Shown: positions 30,380 to 40,840 of the stretch, in pieces
Layout of the letters: each line of letters opens with the position of its first letter
How positions within the stretch are numbered: the first letter of the stretch is position 1
DNA from: Candidatus Rokuibacteriota bacterium
GTDB lineage: Bacteria > Methylomirabilota > Methylomirabilia > Rokubacteriales > CSP1-6
Direction: 5' to 3'
Assembly (NCBI GenBank): GCA_003220435.1
Contig: QHSL01000095.1
Span: 1 to 42,045 of the forward strand
Length of the DNA: 42,045 nt
Notes under the pieces: generated by a model
Seen by the model: the letters and a program-made list of their open reading frames with translations, nothing else
What the model was told of the DNA's origin: nothing
Database searches by the model: none
Position numbers and translations under genes: made by a program

Positions 30380-30402
30380 GAGTCCTCGTGGTGTATCGTT
30401 CA
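30380..30402 (+). repeat. Copy A of a 23-24-base direct repeat
   Basis: GAGTCCTCGT is followed directly by GGTGTATCGTTCA. The second copy at 32670-32693 differs by one substitution and one inserted T. This copy lies 84 bases before the ATG of the truncated cyclase-ATPase. It could be a shared promoter (TATCGT as -10) or a recombination scar flanking that gene. Confidence 0.5.
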
Positions 30403-30486
30403 ACAAGCCGCGTTTGGACCGGTCACACCGGCGGCAAAAAGGTAGTCTCGCGGCCCGGTGCGGTCAAGCGATACGGGGGAGTGGGC

Positions 30487-32646
30487 ATGAAGTGTCCTCG
30501 GTGCCAATCGGAGAACCGTGAAGGCGCACGATTCTGCCGAGAGTGCGGGGCGACACTGGGTGCGGCCTGTTCGAGTTGCGGCGCCAAAGTCGAGGCTGGA
30601 AGCAAGTTCTGCGATGGTTGCGGGACGCCACTCGACGCTACGCCAACGGCGGGTCCGCGCGCGTCCCGTTTCGCCGCCCCGGAGTCTTACACCCCGAAGC
30701 ATCTCGCCGAAAGGATTCTGTCGTCGAAGAACGCCATGGAAGGCGAACGCAAGCAGGTCACGGTGCTGTTCGCTGACCTGAAGGGCTCGATGGAATTGCT
30801 CGCCACCCGCGATCCCGAAGAGGCGCGCAAGATCCTGGATCCGGTCCTCGACCGCATGATCGAAGCCGTCCACCGCTACGAGGGCATGGTGAACCAGGTG
30901 ATGGGTGACGGGATCATGGCGCTCTTCGGCGCGCCGCTGGCCCACGAAGACCACGCGGTGCGGGCATGCTTCGCCGCGTTGCGGATGCAGGACGCGATCA
31001 AGGGATACGCGGACGGGGTGTCCCGATCGCACGGCGTGAACGTGCAGATCCGCGTCGGCCTCAACTCGGGCGAGGTCGTGGTGCGCGCGATCGGCAGCGA
31101 TCTCCACCTGGACTACACGGCCGTCGGACAAACGACGCACCTCGCCGCTCGGATGGAGCAATCGGCGAACCCCGGAAGCATTCTGCTGACGGCGTCGACC
31201 ATGAACTTGGTTGAAGGCTACGTCGATGTGAGAGCCCTCGGCCCAGTGCCGATCAAGGGAGTCGCTCACCCGATCGAAGGGTTCGAGGTGCTCGGCGCCG
31301 GTCCGGCGCGGACTCGGTTCCAGGCCGCCGCGCGACAGGGTCTGACGCGCTTCGTCGGCCGCGGCGATGAGATGGCCGCGCTCGAGGCCGGCTTGCGGAG
31401 AGCACTCGAGGGGCACGGTGTCGCGATGGGTGTCGTGGGCGCCGCCGGCGTCGGTAAGACTCGGCTCTGCCATGAGTTCATCGAGCAGTGCCGTTCGCGG
31501 CGCCTGCCGGTCGTCGAAGCGCATTGCCTGTCGCACGCACGGAGCGTTCCCCTGGGCGTGCTGCGCGATCTGCTGCTGGGCGCCCTCGGCGTCGACCAGC
31601 ACGAACCTCCAGAGCTGATACGCGCCAAGATTGCGGAGCGCCTCGTCGCACTCGACCCCTCGCTCGTCGACGCGCTGCCGCTGGTGCACGACCTCCTCGA
31701 CGTGTCCGAGGCATCTTCGCCCGAGCCCGCGCGGGATCCGATCGAGCACGAGCGTGTCATTGCCGACTTTCTCCGACGCCTGCTCCGCGCCCGCGGCGCT
31801 GCCGGTCCGTTCGTGGTCTATCTCGACGACGCCCACTGGATCGATCCGCAGAGCGAGCGGCTGCTCGTCGAGCTCGCCGACGTGGCGAGCACGACGCGTG
31901 CATTTCTTCTGTTGAACTTTCGGCCGGACTTCCACACCACATGGATGGGTCGTTCGTACTATCAACAGCTCTCCGTCGCGCCGCTCGGTCGCGAGGCGAT
32001 GCGCGAGATGCTCAGCGGCCTTCTCGGCGAGGATCCGAGTGTGGGGGAGCTCGCCGCGCTGATCCGCGAGCGTACCCAGGGCAATCCATTCTTCATCGAA
32101 GAGATCGTGCACGCCCTCGCGTCGTCGGGCGCGATGATCGGGGCGCGCGGCGCGTACCGCTGGACCAGGGCATCGGCCGAGCTCGAAGTTCCCGCGACGG
32201 TGCAGTCATTGCTCGCTGCCCGCGTGGACGGTCTCGCGGAAGGCGACAAGCTCGTGCTCCGCGCCGCGGCGGTGATCGGCAAGCGCTTCTCGGAGCGCGT
32301 CCTGCGGCGAATCGTTGGCCTGCCCACCGGAGAGGTCGACCGGTCGCTCGCGACGCTCGAGCGTGAGGAGTTCCTCCACGGCGGCGCGCAGTCCGAGTAC
32401 GTCTTCCGTCACCCCCTCACCCAGGAAGTCGCCTACGGATCGCAACTCCTCGAGCAGCGCGTCGCGCTGCACGCCGCGGTGGCCCAAGCGCTCGAGGAGG
32501 TGTTCGCCGACCGGCTCGGGGAGCGAGCGGCCCTCATCGCGCATCACTGGGAACAGGCACGGCGACCCGGCCAGGCCACGCGCTGGCGACGCCTGGCCGC
32601 GCTCCGGGTAGCACGGATACAGCCGCGTCGGTCGCCGCGCCGCTGA
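30487..32646 (+). CDS. Zinc-ribbon / class III nucleotidyl cyclase / AAA ATPase signalling protein, lacking the TPR half
   Basis: This 719-residue protein begins with a double zinc ribbon (residues 1-50: CPRC, CREC, CSSC, CDGC). A class III cyclase domain follows (about 80-260) with VTVLFADLKGSMELL and VMGDGIMALFGAP giving the two metal Asp residues. It then has an AAA/STAND-like ATPase (Walker A VGAAGVGKTRL near 350, Walker B VYLDDAHWID near 450). The transition-state Asn site reads THLAARM, with Arg kept. The protein stops at 32646 shortly after the ATPase, where the paralogue at 37487 continues with about 400 TPR residues. The final 25 residues are Arg-rich and resemble a frameshifted end. 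It is probably cyclase plus ATPase without its TPR sensor. Confidence 0.85.
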   Translation: MKCPRCQSENREGARFCRECGATLGAACSSCGAKVEAGSKFCDGCGTPLDATPTAGPRASRFAAPESYTPKHLAERILSSKNAMEGERKQVTVLFADLKGSMELLATRDPEEARKILDPVLDRMIEAVHRYEGMVNQVMGDGIMALFGAPLAHEDHAVRACFAALRMQDAIKGYADGVSRSHGVNVQIRVGLNSGEVVVRAIGSDLHLDYTAVGQTTHLAARMEQSANPGSILLTASTMNLVEGYVDVRALGPVPIKGVAHPIEGFEVLGAGPARTRFQAAARQGLTRFVGRGDEMAALEAGLRRALEGHGVAMGVVGAAGVGKTRLCHEFIEQCRSRRLPVVEAHCLSHARSVPLGVLRDLLLGALGVDQHEPPELIRAKIAERLVALDPSLVDALPLVHDLLDVSEASSPEPARDPIEHERVIADFLRRLLRARGAAGPFVVYLDDAHWIDPQSERLLVELADVASTTRAFLLLNFRPDFHTTWMGRSYYQQLSVAPLGREAMREMLSGLLGEDPSVGELAALIRERTQGNPFFIEEIVHALASSGAMIGARGAYRWTRASAELEVPATVQSLLAARVDGLAEGDKLVLRAAAVIGKRFSERVLRRIVGLPTGEVDRSLATLEREEFLHGGAQSEYVFRHPLTQEVAYGSQLLEQRVALHAAVAQALEEVFADRLGERAALIAHHWEQARRPGQATRWRRLAALRVARIQPRRSPRR

Positions 32647-32693: not shown

Positions 32694-32724
32694 GCGAGCT
32701 GAGTCTGTGCCACGGAGGGCAACC

Positions 32725-33810: not shown

Positions 33811-36258
33811 TCACGGTTTCGGGGACCCGACCCGGAAGGTCACGCGCCCGACTTCGAGCTCTTCGTAGAGTTGCCGGACGGCGATCTCGCCACCGTGCTT
33901 CCGCGCTTCCGGAGGCATATTCACGAGCAGGCGAATTGGGTTCAGCGACCGCGCGGGAAAGAGACCGGACCCGATGCGGCGACAACCATGGGCACCGATG
34001 GGAACGAAGGCCCGGTCTCCCACGATGCGAACGAAGGGCGAGAGCGCGTGGAGTGCTGTGATCAAGCCGACGGGTGCCTCCAGCCAGAGTTGCGCGCCCT
34101 CGGGGAGACGAGCGCAAACCTCGAGGGTGAACGGGCGCGCACGATCGTACGCGCCCGGAGCAAGAAACGAGGCAGCGAAGGGATCGGGGTCCGGATCGGG
34201 ACCGAAGAGCGGAATCGGAAGGGGCTCGGAGAGCGCCCACCCGGGCGAGCCCATTTGCACGACGTCGAAGTTTCTCCACGTGATGTTGTTGTTGTCCCGG
34301 ATCAAGTGGAAGAACGCGTCCCAGTCGGCAAGCCAGATCGGGATGTTCACGGGATCGGGCTGCCGATCGCCGTCTGCTCCGACCAATCCGACGAAGCAGT
34401 AATGCCCGGGCGGCGGGACGTTGGCCTGTAGCCAGCGGAGCGGAGAGGGAACGGTCAGCGCTCCGCCCGCGGGCACCGTGGTGACGCCCGTGGTCCCGAC
34501 CAGCCTCCACGTGTCGGGCCTGACGAGCGTAGCAGCGGGCGCCCAGTACACGGTGGTCTTGGTGTTCTGGGCGCCGACGGCGCCGCGGTTCTTCACCCGG
34601 ACATACACGAAATTGTCCCGGCCGGCAGTGACCGTGTAGCCGATTGCGTCGTTGTTTTCCAGACCGCTGCCTTCGCCGTAGGCGACCTGGCCGTCGGGTA
34701 CCGGAGGGTCCTGCTGCGTCCCCACGGAGGGGAGCACGATGATATCCGGACTCGCTGAGATCGGGCCGGTGTGGGCAGCGCCCGTGTCGATGAGGTTGTC
34801 CCGGAGAAAAACGTCTGGCAAGCTCCCAATCCCGTACGAGTCGATGATCTTTCCGAGATCGGGCATGATGCCGATGCGGGCCGGTACCCCGCCCGCCTCG
34901 TCGACGGGCGGGGTGCCGGTGAGGGGATTGCTCAGCACGTCTCGCATCTGCACCCCGCTCAAGCGGCCCCCCGCGTTCGTCTCCGCCAGGGTTTGCACGA
35001 CGAGCGCGGCGCCCGCGATGATCGCCGACGCCGCCGAGGTGCCGTTGAAGTTGTCGTAGACGCCCAAGCCCCCGTCGAAGTCCGCTGTCCAGACCAGGTC
35101 GCCCCACGCGAAGCAATTCACCCGGCTTCCGAAGTTCGTGCCGATGTTCATGCCGAACGGACTGAACTCGGCCCAGCGCTGTCGCGTGCTCGGGTCGCAG
35201 GCACCCACCAGGAGCGCGCCCGAGTCCCGCACGCCGGGAACGAGCACCGATTGCCCCGTCGATGCGTCGGTATAGGTGTCGAGATCCTCCCGGCGATTGC
35301 CCGCGGGCTCGATCACCACGATGCCCAGCGCGGTGGCGAGACGGATCGTCTGGTAATAGTCGTCGTAGACCTCCACCGGCATCTGGAAACGATCCCGGCC
35401 CATCGCATCCTTGATCGTCGGAATGACGACCTCGAACAGAAGGACCCGGCCATAGGCGACCGCCCCCGGCCGCGTGAAGTGTTTGATGGCCGCCATCAGC
35501 GCGTTGCGGCGTGCCGGGGTCGTCGTGCCGTCGTAGGGCGACGTCCACTGGAAGTCGGCAAGCTTGTAGGCGATCCCGACGCCGCCGACCCCGTTGTCCT
35601 GCATCGCGACAATGCCCAGCACCGCGGTGCCGTGTCCGACCTCCGACCACTGGCCCGTTTGATCGTTCACGCCGGCGAGCGGATTTCCCGGGAACACGAT
35701 GTCCTCGTGCGCCGACATGGCCCGCTCGTAAGAAATCAGGACCTGTCCGGTGCCGTCGCCGCAGTGCGTCCACGCGTACCGTGCGTTGATGCCGCCCGTA
35801 AACGAAGGGAACGAGCCTGCCGGCGCCTCGAGGTAGCTCTGTTTGGGCAGCTCGCCGTTCGCGCCGCCGGGGGTGGCGGCGCCGCCCAAGGGCAGCTCGA
35901 CCCACGCCCGCTCCACGATCCGCCAGTCCCGGAAGGCGCCGGCGAGCGCCTCGGAATCGATGCGCGCCGGACAAAGGACCGCGAAGTAGTTGAGGAAGTT
36001 GGGCGGGCGATAGTCGGGATCGAGTTCCACGGCGCGTCCGACGAGCTCCTGGAACTCATCCGGATTGACGTTCGTCACGTTTCGGATGAGCGTGATGCCG
36101 GGGAAGCTACGGGTCAGGTCGGCCCACGGGCCGAGGTCGCGCGCTTGGATAGAGCGCTCGACTCCGTCCTCCCACGGCAGCTCGACGTCGTCGTGGAACT
36201 TTACGACGACGCGGGCGATTGGGCGGTCTGCTTTTCGGTAACCTCGCGGCTGCGCCAT
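33811..36258 (-). CDS. Subtilase-family (S8) protein with the catalytic Asp replaced by Ser
   Basis: This 815-residue protein has an N-terminal region (1-150) of unknown fold and then an S8 domain. His209 (EVGHGTAVLG), an oxyanion Asn in IEPAGNRRED (near 315) and Ser408 (FNGTSAASAI) are all present. The strand that should carry the catalytic Asp reads VLISYERAMSAHED, with Ser176 where family members have D (V-x-I-x-D-x-E...HEDL). A C-terminal part (about 540-815) has a CARDB-like segment (FVYVRVKNRGAVG). No signal peptide is seen. The start (ATG 36258, AGGAG inside the upstream gene) is two bases after the DUF418 stop, so they are translationally coupled. It may be an inactive or altered protease, or a binding protein. 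Confidence 0.88.
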   Translation of the reverse strand: MAQPRGYRKADRPIARVVVKFHDDVELPWEDGVERSIQARDLGPWADLTRSFPGITLIRNVTNVNPDEFQELVGRAVELDPDYRPPNFLNYFAVLCPARIDSEALAGAFRDWRIVERAWVELPLGGAATPGGANGELPKQSYLEAPAGSFPSFTGGINARYAWTHCGDGTGQVLISYERAMSAHEDIVFPGNPLAGVNDQTGQWSEVGHGTAVLGIVAMQDNGVGGVGIAYKLADFQWTSPYDGTTTPARRNALMAAIKHFTRPGAVAYGRVLLFEVVIPTIKDAMGRDRFQMPVEVYDDYYQTIRLATALGIVVIEPAGNRREDLDTYTDASTGQSVLVPGVRDSGALLVGACDPSTRQRWAEFSPFGMNIGTNFGSRVNCFAWGDLVWTADFDGGLGVYDNFNGTSAASAIIAGAALVVQTLAETNAGGRLSGVQMRDVLSNPLTGTPPVDEAGGVPARIGIMPDLGKIIDSYGIGSLPDVFLRDNLIDTGAAHTGPISASPDIIVLPSVGTQQDPPVPDGQVAYGEGSGLENNDAIGYTVTAGRDNFVYVRVKNRGAVGAQNTKTTVYWAPAATLVRPDTWRLVGTTGVTTVPAGGALTVPSPLRWLQANVPPPGHYCFVGLVGADGDRQPDPVNIPIWLADWDAFFHLIRDNNNITWRNFDVVQMGSPGWALSEPLPIPLFGPDPDPDPFAASFLAPGAYDRARPFTLEVCARLPEGAQLWLEAPVGLITALHALSPFVRIVGDRAFVPIGAHGCRRIGSGLFPARSLNPIRLLVNMPPEARKHGGEIAVRQLYEELEVGRVTFRVGSPKP

Positions 36259-36260
36259 CG

Positions 36261-37484
36261 TCAGGTTCTCCTCGGTTTGGTCAGCGCGGCCGCCGCCGCG
36301 CGCCACGCCCACTCGGCCGGACCAACTCGGAACCGTCTGAGCCAGAGTCGAGACGCGGCCACGTGAACCGCCCACAGGCCGATCACGAGGCCGAGCTGCT
36401 CGGCTCGCTCGACCCTTGCGAACAGTCCAAAACCATGACCGTAGAAGATCGTGGTGCAGATCACGGACTGCAGCAGATAGTTGCTCAGCGCCAGCCGCCC
36501 AACCGCCACCAGCGGCCTGAGAGGACGACCGAGGCTGCGCATCAGGAGCACGAGCCCGGTCCACCCGAACGTGATCGCGAAGCTGCTCCAGTAGGCGAGC
36601 GGGGCGACGACGAGTCGATAGTCCATCAGGTCCCAACCGTGACTGAACGCGCGGTGGATCTCGTAGAAGCTCAGGGGCACTCCGAGTCCGAAGCCGAGGG
36701 CCAGCATCAGAGCGTAGGCCCGTGCTGGTGGTACCGCCCTGAACGTGCCGAGCTTGTAGAGCCCCATCCCGAGTAACATGAACCCCGAGATCTGCCACAC
36801 GAAGCGCAGCGCCACCTCCGAGGTCTGATAATCAAAGGCGCGAGGTGCGCGATACGCTTCCTGATCCAGCCACCCTCCTCGGTACGCGGCGATCTCGGCT
36901 TCGATCGCGCTCGGCGAGGGTGCCCATGCCGCTCGGAGGTGCTCGGCGGTCTCAGGGGGCCACCAGGGTAGCGAGAGGGTGAGCGACACCGACAGGAACG
37001 GGTACACGGCGTAGAGAATCAGCCCGGTCACGATCAGCGGACCCGGCGCCGCCCGACAGTAGTGAAATACGGTGGCGCCGACCAGGGAGAGGATCAGCAG
37101 CCAGTCGCCCCACCACAGAAGATACGCGTGCAAAGCGCCGAGGACGGCGAGCGCCGCCATGCGCCGGTAGTGGGTGGCGGGGTCGGGGACGCGCTCCGCC
37201 CGGGCGGCCAGCCCGGCGCCAAAGACGAGGGCGAATATGCAGACGAACTTGCCGTCCGCGAGGACGTATGTCGCGATCCACGCCCAGAGATTCAGGCCAT
37301 GCAGGTCGCCCCACACCGTCGGGTTGGTCCGTGCCGCGTCCACCGCCGCATAGGCGCGGATGTTGACGGCGAGCCCACCCAGAATCGCCAGGCCCCGCAG
37401 CGCGTCGAGCGCTCGCTCGCGCTCGCCCGACGGGCTCGGAGCCACAACGCGTTCCGGTGTGATAGAAGGAAGGCCGGGGGCCAT
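36261..37484 (-). CDS. DUF418 domain-containing membrane protein
   Basis: This integral membrane protein of 407 residues has about nine hydrophobic segments. It starts ALDALRGLAILGGLAVNI, the acyltransferase-3/DUF418-like N-terminus (RGxAxxG), and contains FALVFGAGLAARAER and GRLALSNYLLQSVIC, both typical of the DUF418 family. Function is unproven; relatives are thought to act in membrane or transport roles. ATG 37484 is adjacent to the ATG of the divergent cyclase gene (37487), with two bases between them. GTG 37445 is an alternative start and neither has a clear ribosome site. The downstream subtilase begins two bases after the stop, so they form one operon. Confidence 0.88.
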   Translation of the reverse strand: MAPGLPSITPERVVAPSPSGERERALDALRGLAILGGLAVNIRAYAAVDAARTNPTVWGDLHGLNLWAWIATYVLADGKFVCIFALVFGAGLAARAERVPDPATHYRRMAALAVLGALHAYLLWWGDWLLILSLVGATVFHYCRAAPGPLIVTGLILYAVYPFLSVSLTLSLPWWPPETAEHLRAAWAPSPSAIEAEIAAYRGGWLDQEAYRAPRAFDYQTSEVALRFVWQISGFMLLGMGLYKLGTFRAVPPARAYALMLALGFGLGVPLSFYEIHRAFSHGWDLMDYRLVVAPLAYWSSFAITFGWTGLVLLMRSLGRPLRPLVAVGRLALSNYLLQSVICTTIFYGHGFGLFARVERAEQLGLVIGLWAVHVAASRLWLRRFRVGPAEWAWRAAAAALTKPRRT

Positions 37485-37486
37485 CA

Positions 37487-40400
37487 ATGAAGTGCGCCAG
37501 GTGCGGCCACGAGAACACGCCCTGGGCCCGGTTCTGCGAAGAATGCGGCACGGTCCTCCAGGTGGCGTGCGCGCGCTGCGGCCAGGCTCGTCCGGCGAGC
37601 GCGAAGTTTTGCCCCGAGTGCGGTCACGCCTCCGGCGTCGCGTCGTATCCGCTTGCGCCTGCTCGTTTCGCTTCGCCCGAGGTGTACACGCCGCGCCATC
37701 TCGCCGAAAAGATACTGACGTCGCGCGGCGCCATCGAGGGCGAGCGAAAGCTCGTCACGGTGTTGTTCGCCGATCTCGAGGACTCGCTGGAGCAGATCGC
37801 ACGGCGTGATCCGGAGGAAGCCCGGCGCCTGCTCGATCCCGTCCTCGAGCGGATGGTGGACGCCGTCCATCGTTACGAGGGCATGGTCAACCAGGTGATG
37901 GGCGATGGCATCATGGCGCTCTTCGGCGCTCCGGTCGCCCACGAAGACCACGCCGTGCGCGCCTGCTATGCGGCCCTCACGATGCAGAAAATGGTCGGCG
38001 AGTTTGCCCGCGTGCCGCGTTCGACGCCGGGCGCCGAGGTTCGGATCCGGGTCGGGCTGAACTCCGGTGAAGTTGTCGTTCGCTCGCTCGGAGGCGACCT
38101 GCGCATGGAATACTCCGCGGTGGGTCGGACGACCCACTTGGCGGCACGTCTCGAGAAGATGGCCGCCCCCGGCACCGTTCTGATCGCGCCCGCGACCCGA
38201 AGCCTCGTGAGCGGTTACGTCCGCGTGAAGCCGCTGGGCGCCATGCAGGTTCGCGGGCTGGACGAGCCGGTCGACATCTTCGAGGTCGTCGGCGCAGAGT
38301 CGGCCCGGTCCCGCCTCGAGGCCCGGGCGGGCCTGTCGCGCTTCGTCGGGCGGGAAGTCCAATTGACCCAGCTCCAGGACGCGTTGACCCTTGCTCGACG
38401 GGGTCAGGGACAAGTTGTGGCGGTCGTGGGCGAGGCTGGGATGGGCAAGTCCCGCCTGTACTGGGAGTTCCTGCGCGCCGCAGGAGGCGAGGGCTGTCGA
38501 ATCCTCGAAACCGGGTGTTTCTCCTACCAGCGAACGGCGGCGTATCGGCCTGTTGTGGATCTGCTCCGGGTCTTGTTCCGTATCAACGACGCGGACGACA
38601 GCACGACGATCCGATCGAAGGTTGCCGAGACGTTTGCGTCGGACCACGACCTGAGCGCTTCCGCGGTCTCGCCTATCCTCTGGCTGCTCGAACTGCCAGT
38701 CGACGACGCGGCGTGGGCCACCCTCGACCCAGAACAGCGCCGACAGCGGGTCGTTGCGGCGGTCACGGGTGCGCTGCTCCTCGGGAGCCGGGCTCGGCCG
38801 CTGATCGTGCTCTTCGAAGATCTGCACTGGGCGGACGCCGAGACGCAAACGCTCCTCGACGCGCTCGTCGAGAACCTGCCGAGCCACGCCGTGCTCATGC
38901 TCGTCAGCTTCCGGCCGGAATACCGGCACCGGTGGGGACTCCGATCCTACTACCACGAGCTGCGCCTTGCGCCGCTGCCGCCGCAGCCCGCCGCCGAGCT
39001 CGTGAGGGACATCGTCGGCACCGATCGGGCGCTCGATCCCCTCAAGAGCCTGCTCGTGGCCAGAACGGACGGCAATCCGTTCTTCCTCGAGGAGATGGTG
39101 CGCACGCTTCGGGAGACTGGGGTCCTCGCCGGCGAGCGCGGCGCTTACTGGCTGGCCCGCGCGGCGGACGCGGTGAACGTGCCGCCAACCGTCCATGCGA
39201 TCCTTGCGGCCCGCGTCGACCGGTTGCCGGAGCCCGACAAGCGCCTCCTGCAATCGGCGGCCGTGGTCGGTCCACATGTGCCGTTCGCCCTTGTCCGAGC
39301 CATCGCCGAGGACACGGACGACGAACGGGTCCGGGCCGGCCTCGCTCGCCTCCGAGACGCCGAGTTCTTGTACGAATCGCGACTGTACCCGGACCTCGTC
39401 TATAGCTTTCGCCACACCCTGACCCACGAGGTCGTCTACGACGGAGTGCTGCACGAGCGCCGTCGGGCGCTTCACGCCGGTCTCGTCCAGGCCATGGAGG
39501 ACATGCACTGGGGTCGCCAGGGCGAGCCTGTCGAGCATCTGGCCCACCACGCGTTGCGCGGTGAGCAGTGGGAGCGGGCCGTCGTGTACCTCCGTCAGGC
39601 TGCCGCCCGGGCCCGCGAGCGCGCCGCCAACCGCGAGGCCGTCGCCTGGCTCGAGCAGGCCGTGGCCGCGCTGGCTCACCTCCGTGAAGCTCCCGCCACG
39701 CTCGCGCAGGCCATCGACGTGCGCCTCGATCTACGGGGCGCGCTGTACGCGCTCGGGGAGTTCGAAACCATGCTCGTGGTGATTCACGAGGCAGAGCGCC
39801 TGGCCCGAAGCCTCGGCGATGCGCGACGGCTCGGCTGGGTGGCGTTCCACCTTGGCGAGAGCTTGCGCTTGGCCGGCCGGCTCAACGAAGGGCGTGAGCT
39901 GCTGGAGCGTGCCCGCAGCACCGCCGATGAGCTGCACGACCTCCCGCTACAGGTGGCGACCAACCAGTATCTCGGCCTCGCCCGCCACGCGCTCGGCGAC
40001 TATGTCGGAGCTGCCGCGAACATGCGGACGGTGGTGTCGCTGCCGCTGGAGAAGGCGGAGACGACGGATTTCTCGCACTCGCTCGCCGGATCGCACGCCG
40101 GCTTCCGCGCCGTCTCGACAGCCTGGCTGGCCCGCTGCCTGGCGGAGACCGGGACCTTCACCGAAGCGATCGCGCTCGGGCGCGACGCGATGCAAGCGGC
40201 CGAGGCGCTCGGGCATCCCTATCCCCACGCGTTCACCCGCTGGGCCCTCGGGTCAGTGCACGCGCTCCGTGGCGACCTCGGCGATGCCGAGGTCCTCCTG
40301 GACGCGGCGCTGACAGGTGCGGAGGCGGCCAACCTCGCGGTCGTGCTGCCGCAGGTCATGCGGATGCTGGGCTGGGTCCGCGCGGTGCGCGGTCGGCTCG

Positions 40401-40840
40401 AAGAGGGTCTCGTTCTCCTCACGCGGGCGCTGGCCGTCGCCGAGTTGATGCGGATCGACATCGCCTACCCGGCCATCTGGGGCCAACTCGGCGAGGTTCA
40501 CATGCTCGGGGGAGGGGTGGAGGACGCCGAACGCTTCGGCCGGCTCGCTGTCGAACGAGCCCACGCGGCCGGGCAGCGCGGTGACGAGGCGCGTGGGCTG
40601 CGGCTGCTCGGCGACGTGTCGGCGTCGCGTGGTGTGGCCGGCGTCACTGCGGCCGAGCGCTGGTACCTCGACGCGATGTCCCTCGCGGAACTCGCCGCCA
40701 TGCGGCCGCTCGTCACCCGCTGCAACCTCGATCTCGGGCGACTCCTCCGCGGCAGCGGGGACGAGGCCCGTGCGGCTGCGCACTTTGCCGCCGCACGCGA
40801 GCTGAGCTACGCGATGGGGATATCGCCAGGCCCCATCTGA
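37487..40840 (+). CDS. Full-length zinc-ribbon / class III cyclase / AAA / TPR signalling protein
   Basis: This 1117-residue protein is the full version of the paralogue at 30487. A double zinc ribbon (residues 1-45: CARC, CEEC, CARC, CPEC) precedes a cyclase domain (about 75-255) with VTVLFADLEDSLEQI and VMGDGIMALFGAP (metal Asp residues). The transition-state Asn site reads THLAARL, so Asn is replaced by His with Arg retained. The ATPase has Walker A VVGEAGMGKSRL near residue 310 and Walker B IVLFEDLHWAD near 440. The remaining 450 residues are TPR-like helix pairs. It probably makes or senses a nucleotide signal in response to ATPase/TPR-bound partners. GGAAGG lies upstream of ATG 37487; a TGATAGAAGG element lies at 37460. 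Confidence 0.92.
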   Translation: MKCARCGHENTPWARFCEECGTVLQVACARCGQARPASAKFCPECGHASGVASYPLAPARFASPEVYTPRHLAEKILTSRGAIEGERKLVTVLFADLEDSLEQIARRDPEEARRLLDPVLERMVDAVHRYEGMVNQVMGDGIMALFGAPVAHEDHAVRACYAALTMQKMVGEFARVPRSTPGAEVRIRVGLNSGEVVVRSLGGDLRMEYSAVGRTTHLAARLEKMAAPGTVLIAPATRSLVSGYVRVKPLGAMQVRGLDEPVDIFEVVGAESARSRLEARAGLSRFVGREVQLTQLQDALTLARRGQGQVVAVVGEAGMGKSRLYWEFLRAAGGEGCRILETGCFSYQRTAAYRPVVDLLRVLFRINDADDSTTIRSKVAETFASDHDLSASAVSPILWLLELPVDDAAWATLDPEQRRQRVVAAVTGALLLGSRARPLIVLFEDLHWADAETQTLLDALVENLPSHAVLMLVSFRPEYRHRWGLRSYYHELRLAPLPPQPAAELVRDIVGTDRALDPLKSLLVARTDGNPFFLEEMVRTLRETGVLAGERGAYWLARAADAVNVPPTVHAILAARVDRLPEPDKRLLQSAAVVGPHVPFALVRAIAEDTDDERVRAGLARLRDAEFLYESRLYPDLVYSFRHTLTHEVVYDGVLHERRRALHAGLVQAMEDMHWGRQGEPVEHLAHHALRGEQWERAVVYLRQAAARARERAANREAVAWLEQAVAALAHLREAPATLAQAIDVRLDLRGALYALGEFETMLVVIHEAERLARSLGDARRLGWVAFHLGESLRLAGRLNEGRELLERARSTADELHDLPLQVATNQYLGLARHALGDYVGAAANMRTVVSLPLEKAETTDFSHSLAGSHAGFRAVSTAWLARCLAETGTFTEAIALGRDAMQAAEALGHPYPHAFTRWALGSVHALRGDLGDAEVLLDAALTGAEAANLAVVLPQVMRMLGWVRAVRGRLEEGLVLLTRALAVAELMRIDIAYPAIWGQLGEVHMLGGGVEDAERFGRLAVERAHAAGQRGDEARGLRLLGDVSASRGVAGVTAAERWYLDAMSLAELAAMRPLVTRCNLDLGRLLRGSGDEARAAAHFAAARELSYAMGISPGPI

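Follow-up and report, generated by a model that had tools for sequence, protein, structure and literature searches.

A subtilase homologue without its catalytic aspartate in a Candidatus Rokuibacteriota bacterium, and the recurrent loss of this residue in its family

In subtilases, the aspartate of the catalytic triad holds and polarises the histidine, and a subtilisin deprived of this residue still works, although orders of magnitude more slowly. The triad Asp alone has been removed in engineered Asp32-less subtilisins (SBT189 D32A, D32G RAS proteases), where Ser, His, the oxyanion Asn and the prodomain are kept: D32G variants are activated by nitrite or azide, and weakly by formate and chloride, and azide occupies the place of D32 in the D32A structure (PMC7935941). 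CspC of Clostridioides difficile shows the opposite pattern of loss (G485/T170/D105), as its Ser and His are gone and its Asp is kept (PMC6636752). CspC and CspA nevertheless have a pro-subtilase fold with a beta-sandwich accessory domain, which in CspC is a jelly roll that interrupts the catalytic domain, and the prodomain of CspC has been shown to remain uncleaved (PMC6636752, PMC12880746). A further described group is the D-x-E S8 family with a CARDB C-terminus, represented by proteins of Massilia, Nitrosospira, Methylocystis, Acidobacteria and Candidatus Rokuibacteriota AR27. Finally, DUF418 membrane proteins, one of which is encoded beside the gene described below, have been assigned to the transmembrane acyltransferase (TmAT) superfamily (PMC12423673).

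The window analysed here, the whole 42,045-nucleotide stretch of contig QHSL01000095.1, comes from a soil bacterium, Candidatus Rokuibacteriota. It encodes on the reverse strand (33811–36258) an Asp-less S8 subtilase homologue of 815 aa belonging to a widespread family, which was defined by translation, Pfam, genome search and alignment, and whose residues are numbered from the MAQPRG start. Its sole Pfam match is Peptidase_S8 (PF00082, 48 bits against a cut-off of 21.8), and begins at profile position 52, i.e. beyond the Asp motif. In alignments with four relatives of the same phylum, and then with 74 relatives from many phyla, Ser176 (TCT, 35731–35733, reverse strand as for all residues and domains of this protein) aligns with the Asp of the family motif D-[LIVM]-E-x-G-W, while His209 (HGTAVLG, 35632–35634), the oxyanion-hole Asn321 (AGN, 35296–35298) and the nucleophile Ser408 (GTSAAS, 35035–35037) lie on invariant columns. 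The protein has no complete Asp/His/Ser triad, as Ser176 replaces the Asp, and the residue assignments of the initial annotation are in this respect borne out. No alternative Asp fits the active site: D168, E178, E185 and D186 also occur in Asp-bearing relatives, so that none of them is a displaced catalytic Asp. The serine is unlikely to come from a single sequencing error, since its codon is two changes away from GAT and three from GAC. The frame is coding-like to its end (GC by codon position 0.67/0.50/0.84). The Ser-Glu-Asp triad of sedolisins (S53) is not matched either, as His209 stands in its HGTAVLG motif with no Glu in place of the His.

The AlphaFold2 model (52 alignment rows, mean pLDDT 81.7) predicts a pro-subtilisin in which the prodomain is in place, followed by a catalytic domain, a CARDB domain and a second beta-sandwich. 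The model falls within the subtilisin fold (Z 29–32 against subtilisins), and its residues 15–473 can be superposed on pro-subtilisin E in its unautoprocessed form (Z 32.2, rmsd 3.4, 335 residues), which assigns residues 15–121 (35896–36216) to an I9-like N-terminal prodomain, and residues 134–479 (34822–35859), where the Pfam match also lies, to the subtilisin-like catalytic domain. Modelled alone, residues 480–815 match the CARDB domain of Pyrococcus furiosus PF1109 (3idu; Z 9.3, rmsd 2.6, 101 residues at 26% identity), pointing to a CARDB-like beta-sandwich at residues 480–669 (34252–34821), followed by a predicted second C-terminal beta-sandwich without a clear family at residues 692–812 (33823–34185). 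The accessory beta-sandwich is thus C-terminal here, unlike the inserted jelly roll of CspC. Neither a signal peptide nor a membrane segment is seen in the protein by hydropathy, the most hydrophobic 19-residue window averaging 1.6 and lying within the catalytic domain; the lack of a signal peptide agrees with the initial annotation. This annotation had also proposed a binding or regulatory module rather than a digestive protease. Efficient digestion is indeed unlikely, given the absence of the Asp, but the regulatory part of the proposal is not supported by the grounds given: Asp-bearing relatives examined by eye also have no signal peptide, and the C-terminal, possibly binding domains are found in relatives whose triad is complete, so that neither feature argues for a regulatory role.

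Compared with the D-x-E S8 family, the query is alignable over its whole length (residues 16–811) at about 40% identity, and shares with it the prodomain, catalytic and C-terminal domains, the lack of a signal peptide, the His, Asn and Ser, and the Glu two residues after the Asp position. At position 176 the family has Asp, with G-W following D-x-E-x in most cases, whereas the query has Ser, then A-M (G180A, W181M) and a one-residue deletion, and a further change near an active-site motif, G322R. It is a variant member of this family, in which the Asp is usual but not universal. Fold and family are both known, and the loss of the active-site Asp is uncommon, yet it recurs.

To survey the frequency of this loss, the set of relatives was extended with those of some 1,200 other genomes and freed of duplicates, which left 132 distinct cores spanning every site, all retrieved by similarity and hence biased toward intact active-site motifs. 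Position 176 is Asp in 123 of them, Ser, Asn or Val in two each, and Leu, His or Glu in one each, i.e. nine Asp-less sequences with the query counted (an in-frame stop interrupts L137, an Asp-less member, and in L125, a distant family member, the acids are swapped, E-x-D instead of D-x-E). By comparison, His209 is kept in 132/132, Ser408 in 131/132 and Asn321 in 131/132, this last count being favoured by the AGN-containing pattern used for part of the retrieval, and the residue two positions after the Asp (Glu178 in the query, 35725–35727) is acidic throughout (Glu in 130, Asp in 2). All nine Asp-less members keep the Ser, the His and the oxyanion Asn. No other catalytic residue of the family varies as much as the Asp, whose loss is recurrent, with at least three separate changes: a quickly built tree of 75 members requires four changes at this site, at least three of which are forced by well-supported branches. 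The same tree groups the query with an Asp-less Myxococcales protein in one clade, which we distrust as a long-branch pair; in a tree of a smaller set, the query lies near the proteins of a congener (G002) and two Chloroflexota ones, without strong support.

A contig from the IMG/VR viral collection (L096, 433–2055) encodes a family member whose active site is intact except for a His in place of the Asp. In a Thermoflexales locus (L024, 1–7590), a full-length Asp-bearing relative lies downstream of a LysM gene and upstream of a Pvc16-type gene and an apparent tail-sheath gene, which suggests that some relatives belong to contractile injection loci. Pvc16 is present in 5 of the 11 genomes carrying the S8 family. 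No Pvc16 was found in the genome of the window or in its congener, and a role as cargo of such a system was rejected for the query.

How could a subtilase without its Asp still work? The reading we prefer to a binding-only pseudoprotease, to decay and to a complex with the DUF418 protein, and to which we give somewhat less than an even chance, is that of a zymogen chemically crippled but with residual or conditionally rescued Ser-His activity, comparable to the engineered enzymes. Ser408, His209 and the Asn321 oxyanion hole would most likely still be used, but with no Asp to orient and polarise His209, turnover would be slower by orders of magnitude. Processing of its own prodomain would be poor, so that the protein would remain mostly in a prodomain-closed, substrate-binding form, its prodomain being expected to stay uncleaved like that of CspC, and its activity would be single-turnover or conditional. 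Help may come from the conserved Glu178, or from a small anion or a water molecule in the vacated Asp cavity, as in the engineered Asp32-less subtilisins, whose residue status the query reproduces in nature. The two differ in that the engineered enzymes are man-made, with Asp replaced by Ala or Gly and a measured anion rescue, while the query is natural and carries Ser. The argument for this slow or conditional protease is that Ser, His and Asn have been selectively retained, which suggests that chemistry still counts: if catalysis were irrelevant, Ser and His would be expected to decay too, yet both are kept. Against this reading, Glu178 is just as conserved in Asp-bearing members, and its role may therefore be structural; the bias of the retrieval toward intact active-site motifs also counts against it.

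The same retention bears on the alternative of a binding-only pseudoprotease, in which the fold would be kept to bind a peptide, a prodomain or a partner protease, as in CspC and CspA. This we regard as rather unlikely, although it survives best among the alternatives. It would account for the loss of the Asp and the changes in neighbouring motif residues, and for the presence of the prodomain and CARDB domains, although these domains are not specific to Asp-less members. It would also fit one Myxococcales genome (G099; L068 2623–7608 and L115) with several S8 paralogues in Asp, Ser and Val versions, two of them in tandem, which suggests a candidate active/inactive pair. However, a binding-only function is weakened by the Ser, His and Asn kept in every Asp-less relative, whereas CspC has neither Ser nor His (PMC6636752). 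The query has neither a replaced nucleophile or His nor, as in CspC-like systems, an active paralogue in its locus or genome: it is the sole member of this S8 family in its genome, which also encodes three S8 proteins of other kinds, so that there is no active paralogue of the family to regulate.

Neutral decay, in which a dispensable gene gained by lateral transfer would be losing its active site and serve no selected function, appears less likely again. The distribution of the family is sporadic, as full-length relatives turned up in only 2 of the roughly 100 genomes searched (relatives and members of the phylum), the query has a long end branch in the trees, and it departs from the family at 13 of 77 strongly conserved columns of the catalytic domain, against a median of 4; these departures, including G180A, W181M and G322R beside active-site motifs, would also fit relaxed constraint, a point against the preferred reading. 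Against decay stand the intact frame of 815 codons with its coding-like codon bias to the end, the retention of all remaining catalytic residues, and a gene order with the upstream DUF418 gene that is kept in the congener G002 at 41–44% identity.

This upstream gene (36261–37487, reverse strand) encodes a DUF418/YeiB-type protein with a PF04235 match of 127.8 bits (cut-off 23.6), a DxxR motif (DALR at residue 28) and many hydrophobic segments by hydropathy. The TmAT superfamily is marked by a DxxR near the first TM helix and a 10-TM fold; the protein shares with it the PF04235 match, the DxxR motif and a predicted polytopic nature (PMC12423673), and is a probable transmembrane acyltransferase. 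Its candidate start is a TTG whose frame overlaps the start of a divergent gene (37487–40840, forward strand) which, from its ORF and domain content, encodes a zinc-ribbon/class III cyclase/AAA_16/TPR protein. Only 2 bases separate the TGA stop of the DUF418 gene from the ATG of the S8 gene, and GAGGAG precedes this ATG; this spacing makes translational coupling plausible, and the two genes are probably co-transcribed. In G002 (L012), the order divergent cyclase, DUF418, S8 is the same, with a 30-bp gap between the last two and a tandem second S8 copy, and both S8 copies keep the Asp. In another congener, G007 (L101), the DUF418 gene overlaps the end of the cyclase gene with no S8 gene near, and no S8 protein of this family was found in its genome. 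A cyclase-like gene thus lies beside DUF418 in L012 and L101 as in the window, which suggests that the link between DUF418 and the cyclase is older than that between DUF418 and S8; the divergent cyclase/AAA_16 protein is probably not part of the S8 function. No DUF418 gene was seen in the fetched flanks of the other S8 family loci, so that this neighbour occurs only in the two Rokubacteria, and none of the papers searched treats DUF418 and subtilases together. Since the pairing is seen in two genomes only, one of which has Asp-bearing copies, it is real in two species but local, and not tied to the loss of the Asp; the functional link that the initial annotation proposed from the coupling is not supported, and TmAT membership (PMC12423673) suggests no role for DUF418 as a protease partner. 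The DUF418 protein is probably a local companion with a probable acyltransferase function of its own, its partnership with S8 being putative.

Other features of these loci can be mentioned. The second tandem S8 copy of G002 (L012, 2402–6288) ends after the catalytic domain, without the CARDB part, and in G007 (L101, 6616–11503) the DUF418 and cyclase-AAA genes are on the same strand. The window itself encodes a second zinc-ribbon/cyclase/AAA_16 protein of 752 aa (30388–32646), without the TPR region of its paralogue at 37487–40840 and with an arginine-rich tail end, apparently cut short or shifted out of frame immediately before the gene for a zinc-dependent dehydrogenase at 32707.

A last alternative, in which the S8 protein would serve the membrane acyltransferase in the cytoplasm as a binding or regulatory subunit, or would process its acceptor, draws on the 2-bp and 30-bp spacings and the divergent cyclase gene common to both loci, but is very improbable in view of the DUF418-less flanks of other family loci, the G007 arrangement without S8, the Asp-bearing congener proteins, which leave the loss unexplained by the pairing, and the expectation from PMC12423673 that TmAT enzymes would act on extracytosolic acceptors without such a subunit.

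Taken further, the slow or conditional protease we prefer could be one of a set of natural cofactor-gated subtilases, in which a small physiological anion or the +2 Glu would fill the Asp cavity on cue. Drawn purely by analogy, this extension has little probability, and would be striking if true. A search of the genome for nitrite reductase of the Cu type, with a local nitrite supply in mind, found none.

The best-studied bacterial subtilase pseudoprotease, CspC, has lost Ser and His, whereas here it is the Asp alone that has been lost, repeatedly. If the protein is dead, it is one more decayed protease. A family in which the Ser, the His, the oxyanion Asn and the +2 acid are kept raises direct questions, and would also connect what evolution has done with the anion-switched subtilisins made by protein engineers. 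What does a natural Ser-His subtilase still do? Does the +2 Glu, or a solute, replace the Asp? If the gated reading were true, the Asp-less members would be switchable proteases that arose several times, like the D32 mutants engineered later.
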